From Leisingera sp. NJS204 (GTDB lineage: Bacteria > Pseudomonadota > Alphaproteobacteria > Rhodobacterales > Rhodobacteraceae), in NCBI RefSeq assembly GCF_004123675.1, contig NZ_CP035417.1:1045501-1109500 (forward strand): a DNA stretch of 64,000 nucleotides. The letters run 5' to 3'. Under the pieces are notes generated by a model. The model was not told the DNA's origin, did no database searches, and saw only the letters and a list, made by a program, of their open reading frames with translations. Positions 33,328 through 52,594 of the stretch are shown one piece after another. Made by a program: the position numbers and the translations under genes. Each line of letters starts with the position of its first letter. Positions within the stretch are counted from its first letter, which is position 1.

Positions 33328-33773
33328 CCGGGTCTCCCTGCCCCCAAAATATAGGCTGCTCCGGTAACTGTCATGGGAAAGGTTGATTTGGGGCAGCTGC
33401 ATGGCCACAAGCGAAAGCTTGATTCGGGAAATGGCAAAGGGTCGTTCGCGGTACTCGTGTAAACAGGGCGGGAATCGGACCTTCTCCGCAGGCGCGAGCC
33501 GAACATGGTGAAACGTTGGAAGCCGACCTTCAGGCAACGCCGCATTAGGTTTCTGTTCTGCATCGCCGCAGGTCAACAGCCCCATATCGGCTGTTAGCAC
33601 CTGGCAGCCTCTCGCCGGTGCAGCATGCCGCGAACGGCGCTAAGCGGCCATTGCAAGGTCCATCACGGAAAGTAGCCGATCCCAGTCCAATCTTCATGAT
33701 GCGCTCGTTCACTACGGATTGACATGCAGCGGCGCGTGTGCAGCATCGATCCAAATTCACCAAGGGTTGCATT
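33328..33773. other. Intergenic stretch with repeat copy A
   Basis: This 446-base gap lies between the MNT gene and the giant helicase gene. It holds a copy (33581-33672) of a sequence found again near 51.8 kb. Short open frames on the minus strand here (for instance 33545-33787) probably reflect a decayed coding remnant; I see no intact gene. Confidence 0.5.
33581..33672 (+). repeat. Dispersed repeat, copy A
   Basis: Ungapped comparison by hand with 51806-51897 gives about 68 matches in 92 positions, with the core CGCTAAGCGGCCATTG identical (33638-33653). Both copies have the same orientation. In one minus-strand frame both translate to a similar peptide (NGRLA..A.CC..E.L....RYG), suggesting a decayed coding element. 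Confidence 0.6.
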
Positions 33774-36700
33774 ATGTCAGAAGTCATTGATCAGGGAGCT
33801 ACAGTTGAGGAAGGTCAGAACCTTAGAGTAGCGTTCTCTACAACGGATAAGGTCAATTTCTCCTCTGCCCAGAACGGTGTTTCGATCCTGCGCAAGATTA
33901 CCTTGATCAATGGGACAGATGCGCCGCTGGAAAACCTCGCTATTTCCATCGAGAGTAGCCCCTCCGTCATCAAACCTAAAACTTGGACGATGGATCGGCT
34001 CGGCCCCGGCGAAGAGAGGAACCTGTCAGACCTCGAAACGCCCTTGAATGACACGCTTCTATCCGGGCTGAACGAAGCGGAATTTGGCCAGTTGACCTTG
34101 AAGGTGTCCGCCAATGACACCGAGTTGTTTCGCGAAGAGCGCCGGATCGAAATGCTGGCCCGCGATGAGTGGGGCGGGATCGGTGACATGGCGCATCTGC
34201 TGGCCGCTTATGTCTCGCCCAATGATGCCGTGGTGGCGGCGATCCTGAAGGAAGCGGGTCGGTTGCTGGAGCGTGGCGGGCAGAGTGGCGCAATTGACGG
34301 CTACCAGTCGAAAGACCCGGGACGGGCGTGGATGTTGGCAGGAGCGATCTGGTCTGCGACAACGGCGCTCGGGCTCACTTATGCTTTTCCGCCGGCCTCT
34401 TTTGAGACCCGCGGACAGAAGGTACGCAGCCCTGCGCGCATCAAGTCCGAGGGGCTGGCTACCTGCCTGGACAGCGCCTTGCTGCTGGCAGCGTGTTTCG
34501 AAGCTGCCGGCCTGAACCCGGCGGTCCTGTTTTCCGAGGGCCACGCCTGGACGGGCGTATGGCTCACGGAGCGCGATTTCGGCCAGGTGACGGAACCTGA
34601 CGTGATGACCGTGCGCAAGGCAATTGACGCGCTTGAGTTCGTCACGATGGAAACTACGCTTCTGACAAAGCGACCGACAATTGGCTTTGAACAGGCGGTC
34701 AGCGCGGGCCGAGATCTGACGGCGGAGCGCAACGAACACACGTTCCAGCTGGCTGTCGATATTCGCCGGGCACGCGTCGCGCGTATTCGGCCTCTTGCTT
34801 CCCACAACACCGAGACAAGCCAGGACGCCGAGCAGATCGAGGCCGCGCCGCCAGCCCTGCCGAAACCGCTGGCTTTCGATTTCCTGCCGGGTGATCTGGT
34901 GGACGAAGAGCCCCAAACGCCGCAGGATCGGATTTCCCGCTGGCAACGCAAGCTGCTCGACCTCTCCCTGCGTAATCGCCTGCTCAATTTCCGTGATACC
35001 AAGCAGACACTTCCGTTCATCTGTCCTAACGTATCGAGCCTCGAAGACCAACTGGCCGACGGCAAGAAATTCAAAGCCCTTGCACTCAAGGACGAAGACC
35101 CGGTTGGGCAGCGTGACCTGCTCAACAAGGAAGAACCGAAGCTGCTCGAAGAGGTCGCGCGTGATGCCTTCGCCAAGGGACAAGTGGCGGTTCCGCTGAC
35201 GGGAAAGGATACCAACAACCGCCTCCTGGCATTGTTTCGCAAGGCCAAGAGCGACATGCAGGAAGGCGGCACCAATACGTTGTTCCTTGCGGCAGGTTTT
35301 CTGCGCTGGAAAAAGACCGAAACCGATACGCGCAGCTACCGCGCACCTTTGCTGTTGATTCCCGTCAAGATTTCGCGCCGCTCGGCCCAATCCGATTTCA
35401 TTATCGAGCATCACGAGGATGATGTCCGCCTGAACGCGACCTTGCTCGAATTCCTTAAGCGCGACTTCGACCTGCACATCCCAGAACTTGAGGGTGAGTT
35501 GCCGCGTGATGACAGCGGCTACGACCTGCCGCTGATCTTCGAAATCATGCGACGCAAAGTGCGTGACGTGGCCGGGTTCGAGGTGGTGGAAGAATTGGCC
35601 ATGTCCACCTTCTCCTTTGCCAAGTTCCTGATGTGGAAAGACCTGGTCGACCGGACGGACAGCCTACGCAACAGTGCATTGGTGCAGCACCTCGTCGACA
35701 ATCCCACAGAGCCGTTCCTTGCCGAAGGCGCAGCGACCCTACCATCTGCCGTAGATGTGGATCGACGGGTGGCGCCCCGGGATCTCTTCACGCCATTGCC
35801 TGCGGATTCGTCGCAGTTGTCGGCAGTGCTTGCCGCACAGGAGGGGCACGACTTTGTCCTGATCGGCCCGCCTGGTACGGGTAAAAGCCAGACTATCGCC
35901 AACATCATTTCGCAGTGCCTTGCAGTGGGCAAGACGGTGCTTTTCGTTGCCGAGAAATCCGCTGCGCTGGACGTGGTTCATCGCCGTCTATCGGCGCACG
36001 GGCTGGGCGATGCAGTGCTGGAGCTACATTCCAACAAGGCGGACCGAAAGTCCGTTCTTGACCAACTCGGGCGCAGCTGGAACCGGCAGGGCGAGGTGTT
36101 CGAGGCAGAATGGATTCGCGTGACCGACGATCTCTCGATCACACGCACTCAGCTGAATCAATACGTGGCCACGCTACACCGCAAGGGAACCCAGGGGTTC
36201 AGCGTCTACGACGCCGTGGGCCATGCTGCTCGCGCCGAGGTGCCCTTTAGCCTGGCCTTCGACAACAAGGATGCCCACGATGCCGAGAGCTATGCGCATT
36301 TGAACAACTTGGCCGAGGCGGTCGGGCGGTGCCATCAGATTGTCCAGGATCGCCCCGACTTGCCGCTGGTCGGTGCCGAAGAGTGGTCCTTTGGCTGGCA
36401 GGCGGAACTGTTACAGCGGGCTGAGAATTTGCGCAAAGCCTCCCGCGACCTGGCAGAGGGCGCAGCCGCTCTGTCTACACTGTGCGGGTTGCCTGATGAT
36501 GCGCTGACCCGGGATCGGCTCGGAAAACTCGTGGCGCTCGCCGGATGGCCGGCAAGCGGGTCCGATGTCAGCTGGGGCCTGGATGCGGACCTATCGAAAG
36601 CGGAGCAGGAGAGCGAACGACTTGGCCCACTGCTGGACGCGCATCGGGACACGACCGGGGCGCTGTCGGCAAGCTATCCTCTGGATCGGCTTGGCTCGAT

Positions 36701-39659
36701 ACCGCTCGATCAGATGGACGCCGACTGGCGGCGTGCCCAGACAAAAATCTGGCCATTCTCGATCTTCGCCAAGTCTGCCGTGCGGAAGCTGCTTCAGACC
36801 TATGCCACGGACGGAAAGGCCGATCCGGCAACGGACATTACCGCCTTGGATACCTTGCGTCGGATCAACGGCGATATCGACACCATTGCACTGTCCGGCT
36901 GTCCTGCTTTCGACAAGGCTGCAACGGACGCCATCCGATTGACGCAGCTCATCGGAGAGGCGCAGCAGTTTCGTGCGGTGACTGACCCGCTGACACCGCA
37001 GGTCTCGGATCACTCGCGATGGACGAAGGCCAAAGCCGCACTGGCCCGCCGCGAGGCTGGCGACTTGCGGGCAGCCCTGGATCGTTTCCGCGTGCTTTTT
37101 CAAAGCTGGGCAACGCAGGCGAATGCGTTCCGGGACACTGCAGGAACCGACCCGACACAGCATTCCCTCAATGACCTCGCCCAGCTCCTTGATCAGACGC
37201 TACAAAACCGCGAAGCCTTGGAGGATTGGACGCGCTGGATGAACGTGCGCAATCAAGCCTGCGGGGCGGGAATGACCTCCCTGGTCGAAGCTGTTGAAGC
37301 CCGAACTATGGCTGGCCCGGCGGAAGAAGCGTTCACCACGGCCTACGCTCAGTGGTGGCTGCCGCAAGCCATGGACGCAGAACCCGTGCTGCGGGGCTTT
37401 TCCCATTGGTCACACGAGGACGCGATCACCAAGTTCCGCGCCCTCGACGATCGCGCTACCGAGATGGCGGCAGAGCAAGTCCTTCACCGCATCCGGCATG
37501 GACTGCCAGCCCGCGACGGCGTGGCCCGCAAATCCGAGTTGGGAACCCTGCACCACCAGCTCGGCCTGCAACGCCCCAGCATGCCGATCCGAACGCTGAT
37601 CTCTGAGATGCCGGATACCTTCACCAAACTCGCACCTTGCGTGTTGATGTCGCCTCTGTCTGTCGCGCAATACCTGCCCGCCGGGCAAGCCGCCTTTGAC
37701 GTGGTGATCTTCGACGAGGCTTCTCAGATCACGACCTGGGACGCGATCGGGGCTATCGCACGGGGACGGCAAGCTATCATCGTCGGCGACCCCAAGCAGC
37801 TGCCCCCAACTAACTTCTTTGGCCGCACCGAAGACACCGAAGTAGACCTGCCGGAAAGCGAAAAAGACCTCGCCTCGATCCTTGACGAGGTGGCTGCCGC
37901 TGGCATCCCGACCCAGCAACTCGACTGGCACTACCGCAGCCGGGATGAATCCCTTATCGCATTCTCCAACTGGCATTACTATGGCGGAAGACTGGTGACC
38001 TTCCCGTCTCCAACCACAGAGTCGCAGGCGGTGCAGTTGCACCAGGTCGATGGCACCTATGCCCGTGGTATGGGGCGCACTAACGAGGACGAAGCCCGCG
38101 CGATCACCCGCATGGTAGTGCGTCGCCTGACGGAATGGCTCGCCTTACCCGAAGAAGAGCGCCTTACGCTCGGCGTCATCACTTTTAACGGTGAGCAACA
38201 AGGGCTGATCCTCGACCTGCTGGACGAAGAACGCCGCAAGAACCCCGATCTGGAATGGTTCTTCGAGGATGATCGCGAAGAACCCGTCATCGTTAAAAAT
38301 CTGGAAAACATCCAAGGGGATGAACGCGATGTCATGCTGTTCTCGATTACCTTCGGTCCGGATCACGCGGGCAAGCTGTCCATGGCCTTTGGCGCGCTCA
38401 ACGGTGATGGCGGGGAAAAGCGGCTGAACGTAGCGATCACCCGCGCCCGGCAGGAGTTACACATCTTCGCCTCGATCCGCGCGGATCAGATCGATTTGAC
38501 CCGCACGAAGGCGCTTGGCGTCAAACATCTCAAGGGCTTCCTCGACTTCGCGGCGCGTGGGCCGGTTGCACTGCCCTCGCAAGACGATGGATCGCTCGGC
38601 CCTGTGGAGAATGTCTTTGAGGCGGCGATCAAGGCGGCCATCGAGGCAAAGGGCTGGGAGCTGCGACCACAAATCGGCGTCTCCGGTTTCCGCATCGACT
38701 TGGGCGTCGTGCATCCGGATCATGCGGGCGTCTACCTTGCAGGGATCGAATGCGACGGGGCGACTTATCACGGCTCTGCCACGGCACGAGACCGGGACAA
38801 GGTTCGGCAAGCCGTTCTGGAAAACCTCGGCTGGAAGATCTTGCGCATCTGGTCTACCGACTGGTTCAAGAACCCAAAAGCCGTCGTGGAGCGCATCCAT
38901 GATGCGCTGACGGAGCATCTGGAGGCAGATAGGGAAAGGCGCGCGGAAGAGCGCGGCGCTCGAACTGCATCGTTCGAAGAGGCTTTTCCAGCCGACGATA
39001 TCCTACCCGCCGAGCGGCGTTTTGCAGCCGAAAGGGCAACGGTTCCGGTGGAAATGGAGCAACGGCCTGAACCAGGCATGCCTGCGCCTGAACACCGCGA
39101 GGGGCCTCTTGTTGCAGGAGTGATAGCACCGGAACATGATGAAACAGACGTAGCCGCCATCACGCAATCGGATGACCTTATCCCCGACCCGGTGCAATTC
39201 TACGAACCTTCCTACATCCCGCGTCTTGAGCGTTTGATTGCGGACATCGTCAGAACCGAAGGGCCACTTCCAGTGACGCTCCTTTCGCGGCGTGTTGCCC
39301 AACAACACGGGTGGCAACGTACTGGCCGGCGTATCGTTGAACAGGTGTGCTCGGCTTTAGCGCGTATCGATATCCATGACGAAAATGGCGTCGATTTTGC
39401 CTGGAGCAAGGGCAGCCACTCAGACCGTGTGCCGTTCCAGATTGATCTGAGTCGCAGCATCCGCGACATTTCACGAGCCGAGATCGCCTGGCTATGCGAT
39501 GCAAATGCCAAGGCGCTCGATGAAAGCGATGATCCGGCTCGCGATTTGTCACGTCTGGCAGGCATTAACCGCTTAGTGGCCGACAGCCGAAGCTACCTCG
39601 AAACCTGTATTGAATGGCGAAGAGAAACTGCTTCAATGGCAGGTGCTGACGCTTCATAG
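33774..39659 (+). CDS. DUF4011-SF1 helicase-Vsr-like nuclease-DUF3320 protein (Hhe-type defence)
   Basis: A 1961-residue multidomain protein. An N-terminal beta-rich region is followed by a transglutaminase-like core (C231 in LATCLDSALLL, H257 in SEGHAW). The DUF4011 domain begins near 386 (RISRWQRKLLDLSLRNRLLN). The SF1 helicase has Walker A GPPGTGKS (698-705), Walker B FDEAS (D1314-E1315), GDPKQLPP, and the later helicase motifs NIQGDERDVM and LNVAITRAR. A Vsr/MTES_1575-type nuclease follows (D1642; E1659-C-D1661; RDRDKVRQAVLENLGW...RIWS), then DUF3320 (about 1800-1950). From memory, the DUF4011-helicase-Vsr architecture is the single-gene Hhe anti-phage system. The ATG at 33774 gives the N-terminus MSEVIDQGA; the upstream ATG at 33738 is less likely. 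The protein is probably cytoplasmic and DNA-directed. Confidence 0.85.
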   Translation: MSEVIDQGATVEEGQNLRVAFSTTDKVNFSSAQNGVSILRKITLINGTDAPLENLAISIESSPSVIKPKTWTMDRLGPGEERNLSDLETPLNDTLLSGLNEAEFGQLTLKVSANDTELFREERRIEMLARDEWGGIGDMAHLLAAYVSPNDAVVAAILKEAGRLLERGGQSGAIDGYQSKDPGRAWMLAGAIWSATTALGLTYAFPPASFETRGQKVRSPARIKSEGLATCLDSALLLAACFEAAGLNPAVLFSEGHAWTGVWLTERDFGQVTEPDVMTVRKAIDALEFVTMETTLLTKRPTIGFEQAVSAGRDLTAERNEHTFQLAVDIRRARVARIRPLASHNTETSQDAEQIEAAPPALPKPLAFDFLPGDLVDEEPQTPQDRISRWQRKLLDLSLRNRLLNFRDTKQTLPFICPNVSSLEDQLADGKKFKALALKDEDPVGQRDLLNKEEPKLLEEVARDAFAKGQVAVPLTGKDTNNRLLALFRKAKSDMQEGGTNTLFLAAGFLRWKKTETDTRSYRAPLLLIPVKISRRSAQSDFIIEHHEDDVRLNATLLEFLKRDFDLHIPELEGELPRDDSGYDLPLIFEIMRRKVRDVAGFEVVEELAMSTFSFAKFLMWKDLVDRTDSLRNSALVQHLVDNPTEPFLAEGAATLPSAVDVDRRVAPRDLFTPLPADSSQLSAVLAAQEGHDFVLIGPPGTGKSQTIANIISQCLAVGKTVLFVAEKSAALDVVHRRLSAHGLGDAVLELHSNKADRKSVLDQLGRSWNRQGEVFEAEWIRVTDDLSITRTQLNQYVATLHRKGTQGFSVYDAVGHAARAEVPFSLAFDNKDAHDAESYAHLNNLAEAVGRCHQIVQDRPDLPLVGAEEWSFGWQAELLQRAENLRKASRDLAEGAAALSTLCGLPDDALTRDRLGKLVALAGWPASGSDVSWGLDADLSKAEQESERLGPLLDAHRDTTGALSASYPLDRLGSIPLDQMDADWRRAQTKIWPFSIFAKSAVRKLLQTYATDGKADPATDITALDTLRRINGDIDTIALSGCPAFDKAATDAIRLTQLIGEAQQFRAVTDPLTPQVSDHSRWTKAKAALARREAGDLRAALDRFRVLFQSWATQANAFRDTAGTDPTQHSLNDLAQLLDQTLQNREALEDWTRWMNVRNQACGAGMTSLVEAVEARTMAGPAEEAFTTAYAQWWLPQAMDAEPVLRGFSHWSHEDAITKFRALDDRATEMAAEQVLHRIRHGLPARDGVARKSELGTLHHQLGLQRPSMPIRTLISEMPDTFTKLAPCVLMSPLSVAQYLPAGQAAFDVVIFDEASQITTWDAIGAIARGRQAIIVGDPKQLPPTNFFGRTEDTEVDLPESEKDLASILDEVAAAGIPTQQLDWHYRSRDESLIAFSNWHYYGGRLVTFPSPTTESQAVQLHQVDGTYARGMGRTNEDEARAITRMVVRRLTEWLALPEEERLTLGVITFNGEQQGLILDLLDEERRKNPDLEWFFEDDREEPVIVKNLENIQGDERDVMLFSITFGPDHAGKLSMAFGALNGDGGEKRLNVAITRARQELHIFASIRADQIDLTRTKALGVKHLKGFLDFAARGPVALPSQDDGSLGPVENVFEAAIKAAIEAKGWELRPQIGVSGFRIDLGVVHPDHAGVYLAGIECDGATYHGSATARDRDKVRQAVLENLGWKILRIWSTDWFKNPKAVVERIHDALTEHLEADRERRAEERGARTASFEEAFPADDILPAERRFAAERATVPVEMEQRPEPGMPAPEHREGPLVAGVIAPEHDETDVAAITQSDDLIPDPVQFYEPSYIPRLERLIADIVRTEGPLPVTLLSRRVAQQHGWQRTGRRIVEQVCSALARIDIHDENGVDFAWSKGSHSDRVPFQIDLSRSIRDISRAEIAWLCDANAKALDESDDPARDLSRLAGINRLVADSRSYLETCIEWRRETASMAGADAS

Positions 39660-40125
39660 GCAATTCCACATTCCGATCCCAAATTTGCCATAGCAGAAGC
39701 ACACAAGAGCTATGGTGAATTCGACCCCGATGTCAGACTCAAGACCCGCTTACATTCACTCTGCGACGTCTTCTGTAGAACCGTTGGGGCGCAATCCTTG
39801 CGTCGGCTGCAGTGAGTGTAGATGGATGGAAGAGCCTATGCAGCCTTGGCCTCCCGGCTCGGATGCTGTGGGCGAAGAAGATCACTCGCAACCCAAAGCG
39901 GCCCTATGCCTGGTGGCCAGCCAAGCGGGTCAGCACATGCAGGTCGGGTGGGAAACAACCATTCGCCGCGGGGGCATTCCCACATCCTGGAGTAAAAGCG
40001 AACTTTGATCGCGTTCGACCCGGAAGAAGAGCGCGTGAAAAGTCTGGACGATGAACAAGTTTAGATTGATAATTCCACATCTGATTCAAAAATATTTGAT
40101 CGTCCTGAAGAATTGTTTGAGCGTT
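39660..40125. other. Intergenic stretch between helicase and ATPase genes
   Basis: This gap of 466 bases (391 if the ATPase starts at 40051) contains a 7-bp inverted repeat, CCATAGC (39688-39694) / GCTATGG (39709-39715), just after the helicase gene. A plus-strand frame at 39712-40008 (about 98 residues) has no recognisable features and is probably not a gene or is a remnant. Confidence 0.45.
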
Positions 40126-42423
40126 ATGAATACACCACCCACTCCCAAACCCACCTTGAAAATATCGGCCACGCACATTGGCCCGATCATGTCTTTGGAT
40201 GCACCGCTTTCCAAAAACAAGCAAAACTTGATTTTTGCACGGAATGGGACCGGAAAATCGTTTCTGGCACGTTCCCTTCGCCTCTTGGATGAAGCTTCGT
40301 TAGAAGGAGTTACACCCGAAGAGATGCCTGAGCTTCTCGTCTCAGAGGAAGCGCACGCCGGGCAGGGCACGTTCCTGCTCTACGAGGATCAGGATTGCAT
40401 CGGTAGCATTGGCTTGAACTGTCTTAGTCAGTCTGTCAGCTTTTCAGTCCCGCGCTACATTTTTCACGTGTTCTCAGAGGACTACATTGACTTTCACCTA
40501 AGGCAGAATTCCTTCGAGTTAGACGGGGAAATCACGCATGAGATAATCGTTGGTCAAGAGAACCTAACGCTGGATGCGAAAGAAAGCGAAGTGGTTTCGA
40601 AGAAACAGAATCTGGAAGTAGCCCGAAGGAATTTTGATGAGGACTTCGCGGCGCAAAAAAAGAAGCTGCAGGATGATTTTAGCATCAACGCTTCTTTAGG
40701 CGGCTTTAAGTCTCTGACCAGTAATGTGTTTCTTACCCCGTCTCAATCTTCAGATGAGCAACCATCAAAGACCTTGGTTGAGCTGCTCGCGGACTTCAAC
40801 AAGTTTAAATCGCTTCCAAATGATCCCAAAATGCCCTTGGCAACCGAGCTGGATGGACTTGGATTGGATTGGGTTGCGATAAGTTCATCCTTAGAGAAAA
40901 TCACGAGCCCATCGAGTGTGGCGGAGGAAGTGAAGTCCAAAATAGCAGCCGACCCAAGCTTTTTTCGTTCGGGCCTAAAGCTCACAACTACTAGCGCGAA
41001 CGCCTGCCCATTTTGTACGCAAAGTTTGACAGAAGCTGCGCAGCTGGCTCTGTCAAAGTACCAAGAGTACTTTGAAGATGCAGAAGCAACGGAAAAAGAC
41101 ACTCTTGCACTACTGGAACGAAGCGTAAAGACCGCTCGCTCGAAGTTGACAGCTTGGAGGACACTGTACCTGACGGCGAAATCGAACTTTGATGATTTGA
41201 AGGCCTTCTTTCCATCGTTACAGGATAAAAACGTAGAAGACGAAAGCGCTGTGCTCGAAGTAATCGATGCGATTCTCGTTTCGATACTAAAGGCTTTGGC
41301 GTCTAAGCAGTTGGATTTGTCATGCGATCAAACGATACCTATCGAGAATGCTGCATCTGAATATGATCGGCTTGTTAAAATTTGTGGACGCAATAGAAAA
41401 CTTTTCGCAGACTTATATAGCCTAGTGAGTAATTCTTCCAGCGAGCGGAAATCAATTCAGAACGAGGCGTGCAAAGCGTTTTCAATTGAATTTGGCAAGA
41501 ACAAATCAGCAGATATCGACGCCATCATACTTCTCGGTCAACAGGCTCTGAACCTACAAGACGAGATCGACGAACTCCGGCGAACACAGGGCGATAAAGC
41601 AGACGCGCGAACTCGGGTGGCAGAAACCTTCACACTGCTCCTGAAGCGGTTCTTTGGGGTCAAATACTCATTTGATGCCACAACATTCAAAGTTTTACGC
41701 GAACAGAAAAATATGGTACGCGGAGGCGATAGAACCTTGAGCGACGGCGAAAAGTCCGTGATGGCATTTTGCTATTTCATTGCACAGAGTCACCTGAGAG
41801 TAAATAGCAACGATGACTATGAACGGCTGTATTTTGTCTTTGATGATCCAGTAACTTCGATGTCGTCCGACTATGTTTATTCAATTGTACAAACGCTAAA
41901 ACTCTTGAGGATCAGCGCGGCTGGAGAAATCGAGTTCAACCCTAAATCGGGGAATCCAAGACCTCGAATGCTGATCCTGACCCATAACAACTATTTCTAC
42001 AATGTTGCTAGCAGCAACGGTGCAATACCTAAATCTGGCCTTTTCCAACTGGTGCCCGGGACAACTCAGCATACGTTGGCGAGTCAGAAGGGCTTTGCTA
42101 CGCCGCATCAACAACAGCTCAAGCATGTTCATGATGTTAGTATTGGGAAAGTAGAGCCCGATTTCATGACCCCAAACTCAATCCGGTCTGTCGTCGAAAG
42201 CATGTGGAAGTTTTGCCGACCAGATGTAGTTGATTTTGGATCGTTTTCTGAATTTCTAATCGACGAATGTGAGATTGAGTTGAAAAGCGTACTCATCAAC
42301 GACTTATCGCATGGCGGGAAATTTGATGATCAGCCACACAAATCAGACGATATCATTGAAGCTGCGCGAGAGGCTATCACTGTAGTGAGGCGATTTGCTG
42401 AGGGTCAACTCAAGCACCTCTAG
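40126..42423 (+). CDS. SMC-like AAA ATPase with CPxC hook (defence-type)
   Basis: This 765-residue protein (790 if the ATG at 40051 is used; neither start has a strong ribosome site) has an ABC/SMC-type split ATPase. Walker A is ARNGTGKS (about 38-45), the signature is LSDGEKS (538-544), and Walker B is FVFDDP (D573-D574), followed by an H-loop-like LILTHNNYF. Between them lies a long coiled-coil-rich segment with a CPFC pair (C294, C297) like a zinc hook. This resembles the AAA_13/RloC/PrrC class of phage-defence ATPases, but no anticodon nuclease motif is evident. The C-terminus has NDLSHGG. The gene is markedly AT-rich against its neighbours, a sign of transfer. The DUF2130 gene follows after 14 bases, so the two form an operon. 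Confidence 0.8.
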   Translation: MNTPPTPKPTLKISATHIGPIMSLDAPLSKNKQNLIFARNGTGKSFLARSLRLLDEASLEGVTPEEMPELLVSEEAHAGQGTFLLYEDQDCIGSIGLNCLSQSVSFSVPRYIFHVFSEDYIDFHLRQNSFELDGEITHEIIVGQENLTLDAKESEVVSKKQNLEVARRNFDEDFAAQKKKLQDDFSINASLGGFKSLTSNVFLTPSQSSDEQPSKTLVELLADFNKFKSLPNDPKMPLATELDGLGLDWVAISSSLEKITSPSSVAEEVKSKIAADPSFFRSGLKLTTTSANACPFCTQSLTEAAQLALSKYQEYFEDAEATEKDTLALLERSVKTARSKLTAWRTLYLTAKSNFDDLKAFFPSLQDKNVEDESAVLEVIDAILVSILKALASKQLDLSCDQTIPIENAASEYDRLVKICGRNRKLFADLYSLVSNSSSERKSIQNEACKAFSIEFGKNKSADIDAIILLGQQALNLQDEIDELRRTQGDKADARTRVAETFTLLLKRFFGVKYSFDATTFKVLREQKNMVRGGDRTLSDGEKSVMAFCYFIAQSHLRVNSNDDYERLYFVFDDPVTSMSSDYVYSIVQTLKLLRISAAGEIEFNPKSGNPRPRMLILTHNNYFYNVASSNGAIPKSGLFQLVPGTTQHTLASQKGFATPHQQQLKHVHDVSIGKVEPDFMTPNSIRSVVESMWKFCRPDVVDFGSFSEFLIDECEIELKSVLINDLSHGGKFDDQPHKSDDIIEAAREAITVVRRFAEGQLKHL

Positions 42424-42437
42424 GAGTATTTTAGGTA

Positions 42438-43589
42438 ATGTCTGAATTAAAAATCCAGTGTCCGAAGTGTTCCAATGAAATTGAGCTTACTGAGCAGTTG
42501 GCGGGCCCAATGTTGGCGGATCTGCGAGCATCGTTCGATAACGAACTGGCCAAGCGGGAAGAGCAAGCTTCAGAAGCGCTGGCTATTGCGCAGGCGCAAG
42601 CCAAAGAGGCTGCACAGGCTGAAATTGCGGCTGAGCAAGCGGCTTTGAAGCAGCGTCTTGATGCCCAGGACGAAAAGTTGAGACATGCCCAGGCAGCACA
42701 AGCTGTTGCGATAAAGCGTGAGCAAGAGCTTAAAGACAAAGAAGCGGAGATGGATTTAACGCTTCAAAAGATGCTTGCCGAAGAACGACCGGTGTTGGCT
42801 GAGAAACTGACCCGCGAGGCGGATGAAAGAGCGGCGTTGAAACTTGCGGAGCAAGCGCAAGTAATGGAGGGCATGAAACGCCAAATCGAAGCCCTTAAGC
42901 AGAAGTCCGAACAAGGTTCCATGCAAACCCAAGGGGAAGCAGCTGAGATAGTTCTTGAAGAAACTCTAGCGGCTGCATTTCCTATGGATGGTTTTGTACC
43001 GGTTGCGAAGGGAGTCAGCGGAGCGGATGTCCGCCAAAATGTAACCGGATCCAACGGAATCGCGGGGAGCATCCTTTGGGAAAGCAAGCGCACTAAAAAT
43101 TGGACCGCCGGTTGGCTCGCCAAACTGCGCGACGACCAGAGGACATCGGGATGCGAGGTAGCGGTTATCACGTCTCAAGCATTACCCGAGGGAGTTGAAA
43201 GTTTCGGGATGGTAGATGGCATTTGGGTTTGCGCGCCACGCTATGCAGTACCGTTAGCATCATCCTTGCGGCAGGGTTTGATCGATGTGGCGGGAGCAAA
43301 GAGCCGCGCTATGGGGCAAGAAACCAAGATGGAGATGATCTACGACTATTTGACTGGCACTCAATTCAAACAGCGTGTCGATGCGATTGTTGAGCGTTTC
43401 GAGGACATGCAAGACAACCTACGCAAAGAACGCGTATTCATGGAAAAGCAATGGGCCTTGCGGGCAAAACAGATTGATCTGGTAATTATATCTACTGTTG
43501 GGATGCATGGTGACTTGCAAGGAATCGCAGGACGTTCCATGCCCGAAATTGAGAGTGTTCAAGGGCTGATGATTGGCAAAGACGACTAA
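42438..43589 (+). CDS. DUF2130 protein (coiled coil plus nuclease-like domain)
   Basis: This 383-residue protein has an N-terminal half zinc ribbon (IQCPKCSNEIEL, residues 6-17) and an Ala/Glu-rich coiled coil (about 30-160). The DUF2130 domain follows (about 165-370). It shows a possible PD-(D/E)xK core, D197 (SGADVRQ) and E215-S-K217 (LWESKRT), ahead of the SGCEVAVITSQALP strand, in line with the restriction-endonuclease-like fold proposed for this family. It lies 14 bases after the SMC-like ATPase on the same strand with similar low GC, so it probably works with it as an effector nuclease. Whether it cuts DNA or RNA is unknown. Confidence 0.75.
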   Translation: MSELKIQCPKCSNEIELTEQLAGPMLADLRASFDNELAKREEQASEALAIAQAQAKEAAQAEIAAEQAALKQRLDAQDEKLRHAQAAQAVAIKREQELKDKEAEMDLTLQKMLAEERPVLAEKLTREADERAALKLAEQAQVMEGMKRQIEALKQKSEQGSMQTQGEAAEIVLEETLAAAFPMDGFVPVAKGVSGADVRQNVTGSNGIAGSILWESKRTKNWTAGWLAKLRDDQRTSGCEVAVITSQALPEGVESFGMVDGIWVCAPRYAVPLASSLRQGLIDVAGAKSRAMGQETKMEMIYDYLTGTQFKQRVDAIVERFEDMQDNLRKERVFMEKQWALRAKQIDLVIISTVGMHGDLQGIAGRSMPEIESVQGLMIGKDD

Positions 43590-44004
43590 TGTCATGCCGC
43601 GCAATTCTAGTACGAAGAATGTCTGGTATCGAGATGTAGGCCTGTAAGATATTGATCGCTTTGGATGTTCGGTTTAGGCCGACGAGGTTCCGAAGAGCGC
43701 CCTCAGTTCATAACTTTGCACTGGCAGCTTCCTGCGCAAAGCGAACGCGGGAGGACGTCTTGGCTGCACCTGCGACGAAAGTCCGGCTAGTCCCGCGGAG
43801 GCCTTGCTTGGGATGAAATGCTGCATTCGGTTGCCAATGGCCGCTCTAGCGACCGCTGCATTGCGGTGGAGGGTTGTGACGAATGTCCGCAAAGGGCCGA
43901 CTATGTCTTTGGTGAGCACAAGGAACTACGAACCATAGTAGCCTCGCTTCTCAAGCTTAGCGGCAGAGAGGCAGAGCATGGCATTTCGTAAGTTGTAGTG
44001 GTTC
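43590..44004. other. Intergenic stretch before the insertion sequence
   Basis: This 415-base gap contains no credible gene. At 43834-43851, in reverse orientation, there is a short match to the core of the dispersed repeat (CGCTAGAGCGGCCATTGG on the minus strand), so it may be a third, inverted and more decayed copy. The IS481-family element begins at about 44005. Confidence 0.4.
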
Positions 44005-45214
44005 CGATGTGATCTGACAGTTGGCCGTTTTTCCGGCGGCGTCTGTCAGGTCAAGTTTGGTTCAGGAACTTTTCCTTCCAGATTTCTTTGCCCTCGATCA
44101 TGGTCTGAAACGGCGTTCTGCCGCAACACATTTTGCCCTGATGAGTGCGCTCGTGGTTGTAGTGGTGCAGCCATTCGTCCAGATCGGCCTGCAAGGCTTC
44201 GATGCTGTCGTAGAGCTTCTTGCGGAACGCGACCTGATAAAACTCCTGCAACACCGTCTTGTGAAACCGTTCGCAGATGCCATTGGTCTGCGGTGATTTC
44301 ACCTTGGTTTTGGTGTGGTCGATATCGTTGATCGCCAGGAAGAGCTGGAAATCGTGTTTGTCGACGCGCCCGCAGTATTCCGTCCCGCGATCTGTCATGA
44401 TCCGCAGCACCGGCAGGTCGTGCTCGTCATGGAATGGCAGCACTCGGTCATTGAGCAGGTCGGCTGCGGTGATCGGTGTTTTGGTGGTGTAGAGCTTGGC
44501 ATGCGCCACCTTGCAATAGGTGTCCACGTAAGTCTGCTGATAGACCCGCCCGACGCCCTTGAGGGTGCCGACATAAAACGTGTCCTGTGATCCCAGATAG
44601 CCGGGATGGGCTGTTTCCACCTCGCCGCAGGCTTCATCGTCGAGCTTCTTCTTCTCCAGCGCCTGCACCTGGGCCTCGGTCAGGATCATGCCGTCCTCGG
44701 CCACCTTGGCTTCCAACGCCCTCAGCCGGGCCTTGAAGTTCGCCAGATCGTGCCGCAGCCAGATCGACCGGACACCCGAGGGTGAGACGAAGACACCCAG
44801 CTTACGCAACTCGTTCGAAGTGCGGGCCTGACCGTAGGCCGGGAAATCAGTGGCGGATTTGATGACGGCCTGCTCGGTCGCGTCGTCCACCCGGTTTGCC
44901 AGATTGGGCTTGCGCCGGGTGCGCTCAAACAGCGCTTCCACGCCGCCTTCTTCAACGGCTGACTTGTAGCGATAGAAAGTATCCCGGCTATAGCCCATCA
45001 CCTGACAGGCTTTCGAGACATTCCCCAGTTTCTCGGCCAGATTCAGCAGGCCGGTTTTGTGTTTGATGATCTTGTCGGTAGTATTCAACATCGTGGTTTC
45101 CTCGTTTCGATGGTTTGGTTGGCACCACCATCAAAACGGACAACCATCTCCCTTCAAGGGAACCACCGCCCCCAATCCAATTTGAAAAAATGGGGGCGGT
45201 GTCAGATCACATCG
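44005..45214. mobile_element. IS481-family insertion sequence
   Basis: The element has exact 15-bp terminal inverted repeats: CGATGTGATCTGACA (44005-44019) and TGTCAGATCACATCG (45200-45214). It contains a single transposase gene. Just inside the right end is a perfect hairpin, ACCGCCCCCA (45165-45174) / TGGGGGCGGT (45191-45200). I find no clear target duplication. The element ends 25 bases before the stop codon of the small metallophosphoesterase gene, which it does not interrupt. Confidence 0.8.
44051..45091 (-). CDS. IS481-family transposase
   Basis: This intact 346-residue transposase has an N-terminal helix-turn-helix (LAEKLGNVSKACQVMGYSRDTFYRYK, residues 18-43) and a second winged-helix region (LRKLGVFVSPSGVRSIWLRHDL). 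An rve-type DDE integrase core follows: the first Asp in VDTYCKVAHAKLY, the second in MTDRGTEYCG and the Glu in NGICERFHKTVLQEF. The frame shows no break, so the element may be active. It is read on the minus strand within the inverted repeats at 44005 and 45214. Confidence 0.92.
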   Translation of the reverse strand: MLNTTDKIIKHKTGLLNLAEKLGNVSKACQVMGYSRDTFYRYKSAVEEGGVEALFERTRRKPNLANRVDDATEQAVIKSATDFPAYGQARTSNELRKLGVFVSPSGVRSIWLRHDLANFKARLRALEAKVAEDGMILTEAQVQALEKKKLDDEACGEVETAHPGYLGSQDTFYVGTLKGVGRVYQQTYVDTYCKVAHAKLYTTKTPITAADLLNDRVLPFHDEHDLPVLRIMTDRGTEYCGRVDKHDFQLFLAINDIDHTKTKVKSPQTNGICERFHKTVLQEFYQVAFRKKLYDSIEALQADLDEWLHHYNHERTHQGKMCCGRTPFQTMIEGKEIWKEKFLNQT

Positions 45215-45238
45215 AGGCTAATTCACGTAAGTAGCGGT

Positions 45239-45796
45239 TCACAGGTTGTACCCAGGTTCCACCGCATTCCAGTACTGGTTTACAGGCAACCTTCGGGCCC
45301 GTTGCTCAATCTCTGGCAGGCTCACCGGTTGGAAATCCCAAGCGTCGACACCCACGTTTATGCTGTTGCGCGTACCTTGCCAGTTATTGTGGACGTGGCC
45401 GAACAATTGGAGCGCTTTGCGGCGGGCGCTCGGGAAGGTGATCATTGGGTAATGGCATAGGAACAACCTCCGGCCATCAACCAGAATCTCAGCCATGTCC
45501 CTGACGCTGTCCCATTGCAGCCTTCGAACCCAGGGACGGTCATGGTTCCCCGTGATCAGGTGCTTTTTGCCCGGGATCTGCTCGAATAATTGGCGCAGTC
45601 TTTCCCGTTCCTGGTTGGTGACCTTCCCAACGGCAAAGTCGCCCAGAATCCAAAAGTCATCATCGGGCTGCACGCGCGCCCGGTACCTCTCAAGGATGTG
45701 CGCATCCATTTCTTCAGCACTGGCATAAGGCCGGTTGCAGAAACGAATGGCGTTCTCATGGCCAAAGTGCGGGTCAGCGGTAAACCAAACAGCCAT
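45239..45796 (-). CDS. Metallophosphoesterase, small (185 aa)
   Basis: This compact calcineurin-like phosphoesterase has all metal motifs: D8-x-H10 (TADPHFGH), GD in ILGDFAVG, GNHD in LITGNHDRPW, an H in LCHYPM and the final GHVHNN. The order and size match small bacterial phosphodiesterase/phosphatase-type MPEs. It is the last of three different MPE genes in the same direction, 272 bases after the second. The IS481 element has inserted just beyond its 3' end, so any original downstream gene has been cut off. The substrate is unknown. Confidence 0.85.
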   Translation of the reverse strand: MAVWFTADPHFGHENAIRFCNRPYASAEEMDAHILERYRARVQPDDDFWILGDFAVGKVTNQERERLRQLFEQIPGKKHLITGNHDRPWVRRLQWDSVRDMAEILVDGRRLFLCHYPMITFPSARRKALQLFGHVHNNWQGTRNSINVGVDAWDFQPVSLPEIEQRARRLPVNQYWNAVEPGYNL

Positions 45797-46068
45797 GTGA
45801 TCCCCTCGTTCTCAGCGCAGTACTGCCTGCCTGTTCTGGAAAGGCTGCCGTTTTCCGCCGCGAGACACAAGGAATAAGTTAGCCACTTCAAGTGCTTGTC
45901 AGAATTTCCCGTTTTCGCAAAGTCAGCGCACCATGGGGCTGTGGCTCCTTTTCAAAGCTGCTCGCTTGCCGTGATTTCCGCTTCGCCATTTTCCTCAACG
46001 TGTGCCGTGGCAGGAGTTGCCGATACACTTGAACCCCGTTCCAGGATCGAATTTTGCTTCCACCCCTC

Positions 46069-46926
46069 TTAGCAGGAACCGGCTGCAGCGAAGATCTGGC
46101 ACATAGTTTTTCCGTCGCTGGAATAGAAGTGAGCCCAGCCTATTTGAGGCCGTGTTGAAGCCCCGGCGTCCAGGCAAATGGCCCGGTAGTCATCGATCCC
46201 GTCCATCTCTCCCATGGACTCCACCCGCAGGTTCAAATCCTCTCGCACGGCCGGTGTGTGTCCATGGACAACGACAGTTGCCCCCTTGAAATAACCCTCT
46301 TCGTCATAGTCCCATCCGTCTGTAAAACATAAGAACTTGTGACGGATCCCTGCCCAGTGGCTATCAGAGAGAGGCCGGTGCCGGTCCAGATGCTCTTCCG
46401 GAGAGGCATCCGGATCCAGACCGGCATGCACCATGAGGAGATCACCGATCCTCACATGCGATGGTGCGGAATGGATCGCGCGAATGAATGCCTCCGGAAT
46501 GGAAACGGCAAGGCGCTCCCTCACATCCGAAAATGGCTCTGGAGCCATGTCCGGGGCGATTTCCGCCAGGAGTGACCGGCCGCCATTGGCCAGCCAGAGA
46601 TGATGATCGCCGCCGTTCAGAACATTGAGGAGCGCCAGCTCATGGTTGCCTGGCAAAATGAGCTTTTCGTCTGCGCCTGCCAGGCTTCCCGCTTCTAGTG
46701 CCAACCGGATGGCGCGCAAGCTCTCAGGGCCGCGGTCAATCAGGTCACCGAGAAAGACCAGCACCCGCTTCTCAGCAGTTCTGTCCATGACGCGAATTGC
46801 CTCAAGGATCGCTGCAAGCTGGTCCGCTCTCCCATGCACATCTCCGATGACAACAAGCTCGATACCTTGCGGAAGGGTGCCGGGCAGAGGGCGCTGCGGA
46901 AGGCTGAAATTTCGGGTCTGCGGCAT
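46069..46926 (-). CDS. Metallophosphoesterase, PPP serine/threonine phosphatase-like (285 aa)
   Basis: It carries the PPP-family signature set in order: GDVHGRADQL, FLGDLIDRGPESL, LPGNHELALL, the metal His in MVHAGLD and the last in VVHGHTP. These match bacterial PrpA/PrpB-like protein phosphatases and related ApaH/PrpE enzymes. Length is normal. It should bind two metals and act in the cytoplasm on phosphoproteins or dinucleotides. It is the second of three MPE genes on the minus strand, 112 bases after the first. Confidence 0.85.
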   Translation of the reverse strand: MPQTRNFSLPQRPLPGTLPQGIELVVIGDVHGRADQLAAILEAIRVMDRTAEKRVLVFLGDLIDRGPESLRAIRLALEAGSLAGADEKLILPGNHELALLNVLNGGDHHLWLANGGRSLLAEIAPDMAPEPFSDVRERLAVSIPEAFIRAIHSAPSHVRIGDLLMVHAGLDPDASPEEHLDRHRPLSDSHWAGIRHKFLCFTDGWDYDEEGYFKGATVVVHGHTPAVREDLNLRVESMGEMDGIDDYRAICLDAGASTRPQIGWAHFYSSDGKTMCQIFAAAGSC

Positions 46927-47038
46927 GTTCGATCACGGTGGTTGATTGTTGTTTTTTGGGGACGGAGGTGAATGACCTGAGATGTTTTCCTGGCACGGTC
47001 CTAGCGGTTCTTAGGGGAAACTATTCCATCCTCCAATT

Positions 47039-47947
47039 TCACCCTGAAGCACCCGGCAACGGGACCAGGCACAGCTCCTCGGGCGGAAGCTCTTCTGGAC
47101 TGTGCTTTTCATAGGGAAAGCCGACAGAGACATTGCGTACGGCGGTGCTTCCGATTTGGGCCGCCAGCCGACGGTGAGAATGCCCGAAGTACCATCCGTG
47201 AATTCGGCACCGATCGAGTAGAGGCGTGAGGTCAGGGTGAAACGCCGGGGTGAGGCCGTCGATCTGGCTGGCGGCGTCGGGATGGGGGCCGTGGTGCGTG
47301 ATCACGAAGTTTCGTCCGTTTGGCGCCCAGTGAGGTTTAGCAAGCTGGTCCTCCAGCCAACGCCGCTGGGCCTTGTGCAGTGCCAGGATATCCTCTGGAG
47401 TTATGGCAACGCGTTGCGGGCGCCCAAGCAATTCGGATCGCGAGAGCGGGTCAACTGCTAGCAGTTTGGAAATCTGCGCATAGTCGTTCATGTGCTGGTG
47501 CGCCACGTTCATGGCAATTTGGACGTCGCCGAGCAGTGCTAAGTCTGTCCAGAGCGTCGTGCAGATATACCGATCATCGCCATGACGCACCTCGCGCTGT
47601 TGCGCGAAGTGGCCTCCGGCCGCGATTGCCAGCTTTTCCAACTCGTCATCAGCGTTCAGATATTCAGCGTAATAGTCGTGATTGCCTGGGAAAATGATCG
47701 TCCTGGATGGGTCTACGAAGCAGCGCAGATAGGCAAAGGCTGTCGGCCAGTTTGTGAATGGAGCGTTTGCCAGGTCTCCTGCAATGATCAAGGCATCGAG
47801 TTCAGCCCAAGGCAGGCTGTTATCCAGGCCATGCGACTCAAATGGCCCCCTGCCGATTTTCTTGTAGCTGTCGTGGTGGAGGTCGGCGAGAACTGCGACC
47901 TTGCCCGTCTTCCGGGAAATTTCGATCGGGGTACGGGTGGTGGTCAT
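47039..47947 (-). CDS. Metallophosphoesterase (302 aa)
   Basis: This calcineurin-like phosphoesterase differs from the other two in sequence. Its motifs are VLADLHHD, IIAGDLANAP, FPGNHDYYAEY, ITHHGPHP and GHSHRRLA. ATG 47947 is preferred because the phosphoesterase fold starts soon after it; an in-frame ATG at 47995 would add 16 residues. It lies 180 bases downstream of the TniQ-like gene on the same strand and is followed by the PPP-like gene. The substrate is unknown. Confidence 0.83.
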   Translation of the reverse strand: MTTTRTPIEISRKTGKVAVLADLHHDSYKKIGRGPFESHGLDNSLPWAELDALIIAGDLANAPFTNWPTAFAYLRCFVDPSRTIIFPGNHDYYAEYLNADDELEKLAIAAGGHFAQQREVRHGDDRYICTTLWTDLALLGDVQIAMNVAHQHMNDYAQISKLLAVDPLSRSELLGRPQRVAITPEDILALHKAQRRWLEDQLAKPHWAPNGRNFVITHHGPHPDAASQIDGLTPAFHPDLTPLLDRCRIHGWYFGHSHRRLAAQIGSTAVRNVSVGFPYEKHSPEELPPEELCLVPLPGASG

Positions 47948-48126
47948 GTTTCGGTGCTTCGGCTCTGGCTGGCTTTCTTGGATCGCCCTTAACATCCATG
48001 CACGTTTCCGGGGTGGAGTCTAGGCGCCTGGTTTTTAATGATTTTTCGCAAAAGCCATTTCCGTTCTCAGATCGGGTGGAATGGAAAAGACCGCTACCGA
48101 GAGCATCTCGGCGAACTGGCTTCAGC

Positions 48127-49959
48127 TCAGGCTTCGTCGAGCAGGAGGTCAATCTCTGATCTCTCAAAAATAGCCCCATAGTCTTCGCCATCCGGACTGA
48201 ACGGAAGAACACCATTCTCTTTCAATCTGACCCGCAGGGACTGCCAAGTCATTCCCTTTTCGACGGCGAGGCCGCGCAGCGTGACGAACCTTTTGTGGAA
48301 TACCTCGATATCTGCTGGCGATAGAAAGCGTTGCATTGCGCCCGTTTTGGGGTTCAACCCTTCGGTTGAAGGGGTGTGGCCTCTCCTCACCAAACGAACC
48401 GCGGCAGCCCTCACGAGACCGCATTGCTGTGCAAACTTTTCCAGGCTGATGCCTGGTGCATCGGGTCGCTGCATTAGGCGTTCAACTTCATCAGTCGTAA
48501 CGAGAAGAGAAAGATAGCCGTCCTTGGTCATGTGTTTGCCAATGCGGCGCAGTTGGCCAGTTTCAATCATTTGGATGATCGCGCCAGGCCTGATCTGAAG
48601 ACGCTGTCCAGCCTTTGGAATGTCAGACCATTGGTGCATCGGCACATAGATCGGTTCTGCTCCGGTCAACAGTTTTTCGATGAAGGCCCGGCCAGCCCGA
48701 ACATCCCACAGGGGCTTATGATCCGCCCCATCGAGACAGGGTTGAAAATAGCCGTCTTCTCTAAGAAGTTCGATCTGATACCTTGGAATACTCAGTGCGG
48801 TCTGGAATTCACCTGCTGACTTTAGTGAATTCAAACCATCAAGGAATGGTTTGGCCGCAGCAGCGTCAAATACCTCCCACTTGCCCTTGTCGCCAGCTTC
48901 CCTAGGCCGGACGTATCCGGCTTCGACAAGGAGCTTGCGCAACCGGCGGGGGTCCATTCCCACCTCCCGCGAAGCCGTGATAACCGAGTGGACGCGGCGC
49001 TCCAATACAGGTTCGCCCATGAGATCGTCTCCAGGCCCCAACGGCCAGGTTGTCGCAATGTGGTCACGCAGAATAGCTCTGAATTGTGAGTACTCTTCAG
49101 AACGCAAATCGAACGCCAACCGGTCGTAGAGGTCTCCGAACTTCTTCTTGGGGCCCTCTGTCGGTTCTCCAACCTGGTCCTGGATCTGGCCCAGAGCATC
49201 GCGTATGCGTTCTTCGCCGCAATATGTCCACTGGAATCCTGCGCTAAAGACGAGCCAGGCATCTTCAGGTGGGAATTTTCTCCATTTCGGCCACTTTTGG
49301 GTCCAAAGGGTTCTACCCAACAACTCGCAGAAATGTGCGGCAGGATAGAGGGAAAACTGATCCAGCCAGATGCCGGATTTCTCGCCGCGCAGCCGCGCTC
49401 CAATCCATTTGTCGAAATCACTGGGTTCACGCGTGGGTTCGTCCAGTTCGCCTGAAAAGATGGCTGGAGCGATTTCTGCCATGCGAGCAGCTACATCGTA
49501 CCTGTCTGATTTGGATGCAGCCTTCCAAAGCGGGACAAGCGGGTGAAGGTGATCAAGGCAAAGCATGACAGGCCGGAAAAGCCAGTCCCCGCGTAGATGC
49601 ATTGCCTGTTCTGGCGGCACATCCTGACCTTCTGCGTCCTCGCGCAGGCATAGAGGGCAGCCGCGAACTGTCGTTTCTCTGATCGCCTTGGCATGCATGT
49701 CCTGCCCGCGGAACCGATGCCGCCTGGAGCCAAGGTATTTCGGAGACCAGGCTTCGATCGCCTCCGCGGACTGGCTGCAGAGTATCGCAAGCTGCGCCAA
49801 GTCCTTTGTTGCCCCGTCGATGATCCTGGTGAAAGAAAGCCCCATGTCGGCAGTGAAATCCTGGGTGCTGACGCCATTGTAGGCAGCAACACGGGAAGCG
49901 AAGGAAAAGGCTGGCTCGCGGTTGCCAAGCTCCGGGACAAGGGACAGGTGCTGGTTCAT
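48127..49959 (-). CDS. tniQ: TniQ family protein, orphan
   Basis: This 610-residue protein has the TniQ N-terminal domain: SFASRVAAYNGVSTQDFTADMG with its helix-turn-helix, then a zinc site C101-x2-C104 ... C134-x2-H137 (GCPLCLRED ... VMLCLDHLHPL). The long C-terminal part has repeated winged-helix-like segments (for example FAQQCGLVRAAAVRLVRRGH), much like TniQ/TnsD target selectors of Tn7-like and Tn5053-like transposons. No tniA (transposase) or tniB (ATPase) gene is present in the window, so it is either a remnant of a transposon or a domesticated DNA-binding protein. It heads the minus-strand run with three MPE genes. Confidence 0.82.
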   Translation of the reverse strand: MNQHLSLVPELGNREPAFSFASRVAAYNGVSTQDFTADMGLSFTRIIDGATKDLAQLAILCSQSAEAIEAWSPKYLGSRRHRFRGQDMHAKAIRETTVRGCPLCLREDAEGQDVPPEQAMHLRGDWLFRPVMLCLDHLHPLVPLWKAASKSDRYDVAARMAEIAPAIFSGELDEPTREPSDFDKWIGARLRGEKSGIWLDQFSLYPAAHFCELLGRTLWTQKWPKWRKFPPEDAWLVFSAGFQWTYCGEERIRDALGQIQDQVGEPTEGPKKKFGDLYDRLAFDLRSEEYSQFRAILRDHIATTWPLGPGDDLMGEPVLERRVHSVITASREVGMDPRRLRKLLVEAGYVRPREAGDKGKWEVFDAAAAKPFLDGLNSLKSAGEFQTALSIPRYQIELLREDGYFQPCLDGADHKPLWDVRAGRAFIEKLLTGAEPIYVPMHQWSDIPKAGQRLQIRPGAIIQMIETGQLRRIGKHMTKDGYLSLLVTTDEVERLMQRPDAPGISLEKFAQQCGLVRAAAVRLVRRGHTPSTEGLNPKTGAMQRFLSPADIEVFHKRFVTLRGLAVEKGMTWQSLRVRLKENGVLPFSPDGEDYGAIFERSEIDLLLDEA

Positions 49960-50212
49960 ATCACTTGGATACCAAATGCTACAGGTGGTGTAAGGCGCGA
50001 TTTGACTGGGAAAGCTGGGAAGTAAGGTAATCTAGATTGTGTCCGCGCTAGGCCTCAATGGAGAAGTAGTGCGTTGTAATCAGGGCTTGTATTTAAGCGT
50101 TGGGAGGGGCGGAGCTGACAGATGCTAGCCGCATCCGCCAGATTTGGTTCAAGTGGCCTGCCTCGAATGGTGTGTTGGGTCTTGAGCAGTCAGTGCCCTG
50201 ATGCTTGGCACC

Positions 50213-52559: not shown

Positions 52560-52594
52560 TGAATTGTCCTCTTGGGGTGATTTCACATTTCTGA

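Follow-up and report, generated by a model that had tools for sequence, protein, structure and literature searches.

The window analysed here, a stretch of 64,000 nucleotides from Leisingera sp. NJS204 (contig NZ_CP035417.1, positions 1,045,501 to 1,109,500), carries at its positions 40,126 to 43,589 two adjoining genes, one for an ATP-binding cassette (ABC) ATPase of probable RloC type and one for a protein of the DUF2130 family. Both had earlier been proposed, from the letters alone, as a candidate two-gene defence module (the original prediction). With slightly more confidence than doubt, the locus is read here as an RloC-type ATPase plus a promiscuous accessory DUF2130 nuclease and not as a private effector pair. 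The following features are concerned (positions are those of the window; aa, amino acids):

33497..45222, no strand: exchanged block with ProA, RloC, DUF2130 and an IS481 transposase, between sequence common with the closest same-genus genome (L189)
33738..39659, forward strand: anti-phage helicase/nuclease of ProA type, upstream of the ATPase gene within the block (NCBIfam NF058533, 2093.5 bits)
40126..42423, forward strand: probable RloC-type ABC ATPase and predicted anticodon nuclease, 765 aa (PF13166 AAA_13, PDC-S06, hook and triad)
41005..41016, forward strand: CPFC zinc-hook motif (Cys319-Cys322 in the numbering of a 790-aa reading frame), both Cys kept in 17/17 aligned sequences
42184..42312, forward strand: RloC-type triad Arg712-X3-Glu716-X37-His754 with Ser753 before His, placed by alignment and by the published Arg-X3-Glu-X36-52-His rule
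42424..42437, forward strand: intergenic gap of 14 bases between the ATPase and DUF2130 genes, lacking the leader that several relatives show (by eye) before DUF2130
42438..43589, forward strand: DUF2130 protein, 383 aa, with a CPKC knuckle, a long coiled coil and a predicted PD-(D/E)XK core (PF09903, invariant residues, AlphaFold2 model)

The two adjoining genes are real, as both open reading frames (ORFs) are intact and follow each other on the same strand. The longest ORF of the ATPase gene extends over 40051-42423 and encodes 790 aa. Since the alignment of seven full-length relatives begins at residue 21-30 of this ORF and 12 relatives of the same subfamily measure 765-792 aa, the start at 40126 is plausible and fits the relatives better; residue numbers of the ATPase follow the 790-aa ORF throughout. 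The low guanine-plus-cytosine (GC) content mentioned in the original prediction was found as well, with 46.8 % for the ATPase and 51.6 % for the DUF2130 gene in comparison to 60.0 % for ProA and 59.6 % for the window, and so were the defence-like surroundings, since the upstream gene encodes a protein of 1973 aa whose score for the NCBIfam model antiphage_ProA exceeds the cut-off of 1500 bits. Literature on ProA/DUF4011 (including PMC10250203) did not, in the parts available, identify ProA. Downstream of DUF2130 the IS481 transposase gene lies on the opposite strand.

The only Pfam family matched by the ATPase at E 1 is AAA_13 (E 5.8e-35). In addition, the PADLOC candidate PDC-S06 (model PDLC04898) matches the protein full-length, over residues 35-789 and model positions 6-746 of 752 (E 3.9e-127). 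The ATPase motifs given in the original prediction (Walker A and B, signature and a CPxC hook pair) are all present and conserved among relatives. Walker A is ARNGTGKS at 63-70, with Ala or Gly as first residue among relatives, the signature is LSDGE at 563-567, with Asp or Glu in third place, Walker B is VFDD at 596-599, and His645 and Cys319/Cys322 form the H-loop and the hook. The ABC motifs and the hook hold across the aligned relatives save where one of them (L123) is truncated. According to the available part of the published definition, an RloC protein measures 658-897 aa, shows ABC motifs, carries a CXXC hook within a helical insert and has, towards its C-terminus, an Arg-X3-Glu-X36-52-His triad in which Ser often precedes His (PMC2610378). 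The window ATPase shares all of these, with 37 residues from Glu to His; it differs in a Walker A that starts with Ala instead of Gly, and the coiled-coil geometry around its hook is presumed. Arg, Glu and His stand in aligned columns of 13 members of the subfamily, the window protein among them, and of L025, and the residue before His is Cys in nine of the 13. Two further proteins, L017 and L006, do not align at the triad, yet each has such a pattern of its own; L123 is truncated there. The nuclease of RloC has been placed in the HEPN superfamily, as far as the available part of a review on HEPN proteins goes. By its motifs the ATPase is thus probably an RloC-type protein and a predicted tRNA anticodon nuclease, and because hook and triad are present and conserved it very probably carries its own RNA-cutting effector. 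By the same motifs and by the library match it is a further member of kinds already described, namely RloC and PDC-S06. The latter is, by its name, presumably a single-gene candidate. Searches of PDB sequences with the ATPase and with the DUF2130 protein gave nothing useful.

The second protein is a clear member of its family (PF09903, E 8.6e-65), and its residues C8, C11, E170, D197, E215 and K217 are invariant in 27 DUF2130 sequences. The original prediction described a zinc-ribbon start, a coiled coil and a possible D...ExK core. A zinc ribbon was rejected, since the N-terminus has two cysteines only (CPKC) and forms at most a zinc knuckle. The coiled coil corresponds to a long helix (23-180) in an AlphaFold2 model with a mean confidence (pLDDT) of 81.3 and a predicted template modelling score of 0.40, and the D...ExK core is borne out by the invariant D197, E215 and K217. 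After the long helix the model shows strands at 185-188, 198-204 and 207-217, a helix at 226-237 and a strand at 241-246; with the three residues in place, this order of elements fits a PD-(D/E)XK nuclease. A Foldseek search with the model returned weak matches including EcoT38I (the best, E 0.049), DdmD, SPARDA, Bax1 and AF1548, which we take to share the PD-(D/E)XK fold. The DUF2130 model has the secondary-structure order and the D...ExK residues in common with the nucleases EcoT38I, DdmD and SPARDA; in contrast to them it bears a long coiled coil and the CPKC knuckle in front, and the Foldseek E values from 0.049 up are not significant. The protein is therefore predicted, on the strength of the model, to be a PD-(D/E)XK DNase. 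Unlike the ATPase it has no match in the PADLOC library at E 0.1. DUF2130 is uncommon, being found in 11/394 genomes of the same family, 33/398 genomes of the phylum and 28/274 genomes of the class of genome G769. In the phage collection it matched seven records, all with Helicobacter heilmannii as host and at 33 % identity, which gives no support to a phage origin of the block. Downstream of the DUF2130 stop (about 43615-43650) a short recurring stretch, GAATGTC followed by GGGCCG-like letters, was seen by eye in the window and in several of the loci L014-L020 and L039; it is possibly an interspersed repeat.

The neighbours of DUF2130 were read in several samples, those from the family, the phylum and the class of G769 being drawn evenly by Pfam family. 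Most labels of neighbours in single loci rest on similarity to the seed proteins, the Pfam tally gives families and not members, and four of 137 neighbouring proteins, including two large ones beside the methylase of L129, were left out of the Pfam scan for their size. The 33 relatives in genome contigs comprise 13 solitary genes, four loci with too little upstream sequence (L019, L023, L028, L039), one weak match (L044) and 15 others. In ten of these 15 a defence-type ATPase adjoins DUF2130: Gabija in L012, L018 (by similarity only) and L020, an RloC-like gene in L014 (a fragment, by similarity only), L015, L017 and L025, a PHP/SMC-like protein in L016 ("PHP" by eye), a HerA-like protein beside a DUF2130 fragment in L043 (similarity, by eye) and an OLD gene in L027. 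No such ATPase adjoins DUF2130 in L013, L021, L022, L040 and L041. The phylum sample covers 29 of 34 listed places (G000 is the window; G482, at a contig edge, G484, G476 and G648 were left out). Eight of them have a partner, which is OLD in L125, L137 and L146, Gabija in L144, SIR2-HerA in L133, L135 and L136 and an RloC-like split gene in L123. The class of G769 added 20 loci (G769 and G455 had been covered before; G850, G928, G922, the weak G1044, G476 and G890 were left out), four of them with a partner: AAA_13 in L171 and L173, SIR2 with a broken HerA in L174 and OLD in L180. The family sample, nine regions and the window (G219, at a contig edge, was left out), has a partner in two of ten loci, SIR2-HerA in L106 and the window itself. 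HerA or SIR2 was rejected for the neighbours in L126 and L128, as the Pfam tally fits phosphate acetyltransferase and acetate kinase better; both stand outside the counts. Seven plasmid regions, not a random choice, were read from 42 records with DUF2130. One has an RloC-like gene 878 bases from DUF2130 on the other strand (L006), another an annotated ATP-dependent endonuclease and a UvrD-type helicase directly after it (L008), and four (L005, L007, L010, L011) have no defence-type partner.

Taken over all samples, RloC or AAA_13 genes lie beside DUF2130 in eight loci other than the window (L006, L014, L015, L017, L025, L123, L171, L173), with varying order, orientation and distance. Operon-like spacing, that is the same strand and at most 50 bases, is found with OLD in L125, L137, L146, L180 and L027, with SIR2 in L106, L136 and L174, with RloC/AAA_13 in the window and in L173, with the annotated ATP-dependent endonuclease in L008 and with an AAA_15 ATPase in L162. 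DUF2130 thus pairs with OLD/Gabija at least as often as with RloC-like genes.

Some further arrangements around DUF2130 were noted. In the viral contig L162 (1633-7200) HsdM, HsdS, the AAA_15 ATPase and DUF2130 form one run, the last two being separated by 5 bases. DUF2130 is close to a DNA polymerase A gene in three viral contigs (L157:5971-9305, L158:6001-9350, L161:2122-6490), precedes an AAA ATPase gene and a subtilase gene of the same strand in L175:3589-8377, and has a Cas6-like gene 6 bases upstream on the same strand in L187:5609-7771.

The exchange of partners is most apparent within a single clade. In a tree of 72 DUF2130 proteins, calculated by a quick method without the split, fragmentary or duplicate rows (L027, L039, L041, L042, L043, L110, L112, L114, L150) and without the loci from the class of G769, the window protein belongs to a supported clade of 15 Rhodobacterales rows (Shimodaira-Hasegawa-like approximate likelihood ratio test, 99). 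The DUF2130 proteins of this clade are 83-88 % identical to the one in the window, and their neighbours are RloC-like in five rows, Gabija in three and PHP/SMC in one, with none recognised in six. Furthermore, the order in L027:2196-11150 is ProA, OLD and DUF2130 in comparison to ProA, RloC and DUF2130 in the window, so that the outer genes stay and the middle one differs; the DUF2130 gene of L027 is split over two frames. DUF2130 therefore swaps partners while its own sequence stays close. A similar leader of about 70 bases in front of DUF2130 was seen by eye in several relatives; it is missing in the window, where the ATPase gene ends 14 bases upstream.

Enrichment was tested in 28 genomes of the phylum sample by locating matches to gene families relative to DUF2130, with a distance of 5 kb as limit. 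Within this distance lie four of 11 OLD-TOPRIM, three of 14 SIR2_2 and at least one of 12 AAA_13 matches, about 0.03 being expected for each, and none of 60 N6_Mtase matches (0.2 expected), two of the 60 scoring below the cut-off and some perhaps being fragments of a single gene. For DUF87, at least three are near among the first 14 matches listed. OLD and SIR2 together (7/25) differ from N6_Mtase (0/60) with a Fisher p of 9.7e-5, a value to be read with small counts, genes that are not independent and draft contigs that hide neighbours. The partner kinds had been named after being seen, which the loci from the class of G769 make good only in part. Restriction genes do occur near DUF2130, but its association with OLD and SIR2-HerA genes is stronger.

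Gabija/OLD and SIR2-HerA systems adjoin DUF2130 in an operon-like arrangement, as does the RloC gene of the window. The window pair itself is neither of the two and lacks a TOPRIM-bearing OLD ATPase, AAA_13 being its sole Pfam match. To our knowledge, DUF2130 is not part of the usual definitions of Gabija/OLD and SIR2-HerA systems. Judging from titles and the opening lines of abstracts, none of the retrieved papers that name DUF2130 is about defence; a literature search for an accessory nuclease of Gabija brought nothing of relevance, and no paper describing DUF2130 as a companion that swaps between ATPase-driven defences was retrieved. The exact pair is not a conserved system, and DUF2130 as such a companion is possibly a new part.

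A different picture is obtained from the side of the ATPase. In the 394 genomes of the family, 16 have an ATPase match at E 0.001, nine of them at E <1e-50 (window's genome included), and only the window's own genome holds both this match and DUF2130. Eleven regions around ATPase relatives were read, seven from genomes and four from plasmids (out of 105 plasmid records). DUF2130 is absent from all 11 and from the one relative on a viral contig (L168). The 11 regions are not all independent cases, since L105 and L119 are alike and some of the contigs are cut. Among all loci read here, some contigs are short (L176 and L181 for instance; L118 begins 351 bases before the ATPase gene), so that neighbours can be missed. 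Only one close relative (L015, 37 % identity) was seen next to DUF2130; the two genes are divergent, and the locus came from the DUF2130 search. An SbcC-like gene lies within a few kb in five of the 11 regions (L103, L104, L105, L115, L119; three on plasmids), in contrast to the window gene, which is preceded by ProA and followed by DUF2130. The SbcC-like genes have a phosphoesterase or SbcD-type gene adjoining, by annotation in L103-L105 and by Pfam in L115 and L119, and RloC-like plus SbcCD-like genes are a recurrent arrangement.

The reading as RloC-type ATPase with a promiscuous accessory nuclease is built on homology, motifs, recurrent adjacency and partner swapping, which were observed directly; to these it adds a nuclease activity, a substrate and a coupling of the two proteins as predictions. 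The ATPase, judged from its motifs and the published work on RloC of Geobacillus kaustophilus (GkaRloC), would be a Rad50-like protein that responds to DNA ends and whose C-terminal HEPN-type anticodon nuclease disables translation when broken or linear DNA appears during infection. DUF2130 would be an accessory gene that joins ATPase-driven defences (OLD/Gabija, SIR2-HerA, RloC) through repeated partner swapping. Its most likely role would be to cut the same foreign DNA, or to process the ends of it, and thereby to add a DNA-directed arm; possibly it also supplies the DNA ends that switch on the ATPase partner. According to the available part of the GkaRloC study, this protein is activated by linear and not by circular DNA (PMC3874168). 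A DNase that attacks DNA entering the cell could harm the phage and at the same time create activating ends. The SbcCD-like neighbours of other subfamily members would meet the same need for DNA ends. As a tentative extension, DUF2130 may be a shared plug-in accessory nuclease that moves among RloC, Gabija/OLD and SIR2-HerA and supplies a DNA-processing step common to all of them. If this is true, DUF2130 would be a general-purpose helper for several unrelated ATPase-based defences, easily missed by system-by-system annotation, it could explain an extra gene in some OLD, SIR2-HerA or RloC loci, and it would become directly testable whether DNA-sensing defences share a DNA-processing step. The two kinds of RloC neighbours, SbcC-like gene and DUF2130, likewise make the source of the activating DNA ends a testable question.

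Several results weigh against this interpretation. On the side of the ATPase, DUF2130 is present in none of the 11 regions around relatives, RloC-like genes mostly occur without it, a search by pattern found no triad in the AAA_13 protein of L173, and the structure model (pLDDT 52) is too poor for a check of the HEPN fold. As to the nuclease, Foldseek gave no match at E 0.001 and mixed unrelated folds in, and the profile search of solved structures returned coiled-coil-like matches only. Thirteen Octadecabacter-like loci share a conserved synteny and have DUF2130 as a solitary gene, and no recognised OLD, SIR2-HerA or RloC neighbour exists in 21/29 loci of the phylum, 16/20 of the class of G769 and 8/10 of the family. 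Restriction genes do adjoin it: HsdM/HsdS in L009 (plasmid) and L162, and a DNA methylase (PF01555) in L129 which falls outside the enrichment count, N6_Mtase (PF02384) being one methylase family.

An unlikely but serious explanation is hitch-hiking, that is, independent RloC and DUF2130 genes side by side in a defence hotspot, with an accidental gap of 14 bases and no cooperation. The insertion site speaks for it. A ribonucleotide reductase gene left of the block is matched in 21/21 genomes of the same genus, and the closest of them (L189) matches the window at about 95 % over 30941-33496 and 45223-51789. Between these matches L189 carries other DNA, save a 111-base match (76 %) at window 43882-43992. 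In its own segment (L189:2558-9023) a 613-aa protein has an OLD nuclease (E 2.8e-9) and PtuA (E 2.2e-6) as PDB matches, and another protein, of 471 aa, matches a helicase weakly (E 0.008). The seed proteins gave no tblastn match to the segment at 1e-15, hence the OLD-like protein encoded there is distant from the ones that adjoin DUF2130. In L190 the homology ends at window 33474 and metabolic genes follow (labels by eye); it ends at 32735 in L191 and at 32719 in L192. Since L189 and L190 carry other content there, the locus is a variable site with a changing gene content that includes defence genes. Two phosphoesterase genes at 46069 and 47039, considered as partners of the ATPase, were rejected, as they are on the opposite strand and within sequence common to L189, which lacks the block. 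The absence of DUF2130 around ATPase relatives, the similar leader kept by several Rhodobacterales relatives whatever lies upstream, and the restriction, Cas6 and AAA-subtilase neighbours (L009, L129, L162; L187; L175) also agree with mere co-residence. However, plain co-residence predicts restriction genes in proportion, in conflict with the counts within 5 kb, and the short same-strand gaps recur with the same few partner kinds.

It is distinctly unlikely that DUF2130 is a stand-alone, partner-free nuclease of DNA repair or defence, comparable to RmuC, and that its neighbours are incidental; the solitary Octadecabacter-like genes, the vicinity of DNA polymerase A in viral contigs and the many loci without a recognised partner would fit this role, whereas the enrichment of DUF2130 next to OLD and SIR2-HerA genes and the recurrence of operon-like distances do not. 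A dedicated defence system of exactly this ATPase and DUF2130, as originally proposed, is improbable and was rejected as the principal reading, for in spite of the short gap, the common strand, the similar low GC and the eight other loci with RloC/AAA_13 beside DUF2130, the two co-occur in 1/394 genomes and 0/11 relative regions, partners differ within the 15-row clade, and the ATPase has its own predicted effector. What stands of the two-gene module is a defence-type ATPase and a ProA gene by library match, together with the adjacency in those eight loci. The original prediction had named rare adjacency, or a pair already assigned to a named system, as what would refute it: this holds for the ATPase (0/11; PDC-S06 and RloC), and for DUF2130 only by half.

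Two observations concern other parts of the window. A Tle1-like phospholipase domain (PF09994, E 3.6e-63) is present in a protein encoded at 50213-51700 on the reverse strand, next to a TniQ-domain protein (48127-49959), and a copper-handling cluster extends over 52215-61151 with CusF-like, CusA and CusB/CusF-like proteins as well as a multicopper oxidase.

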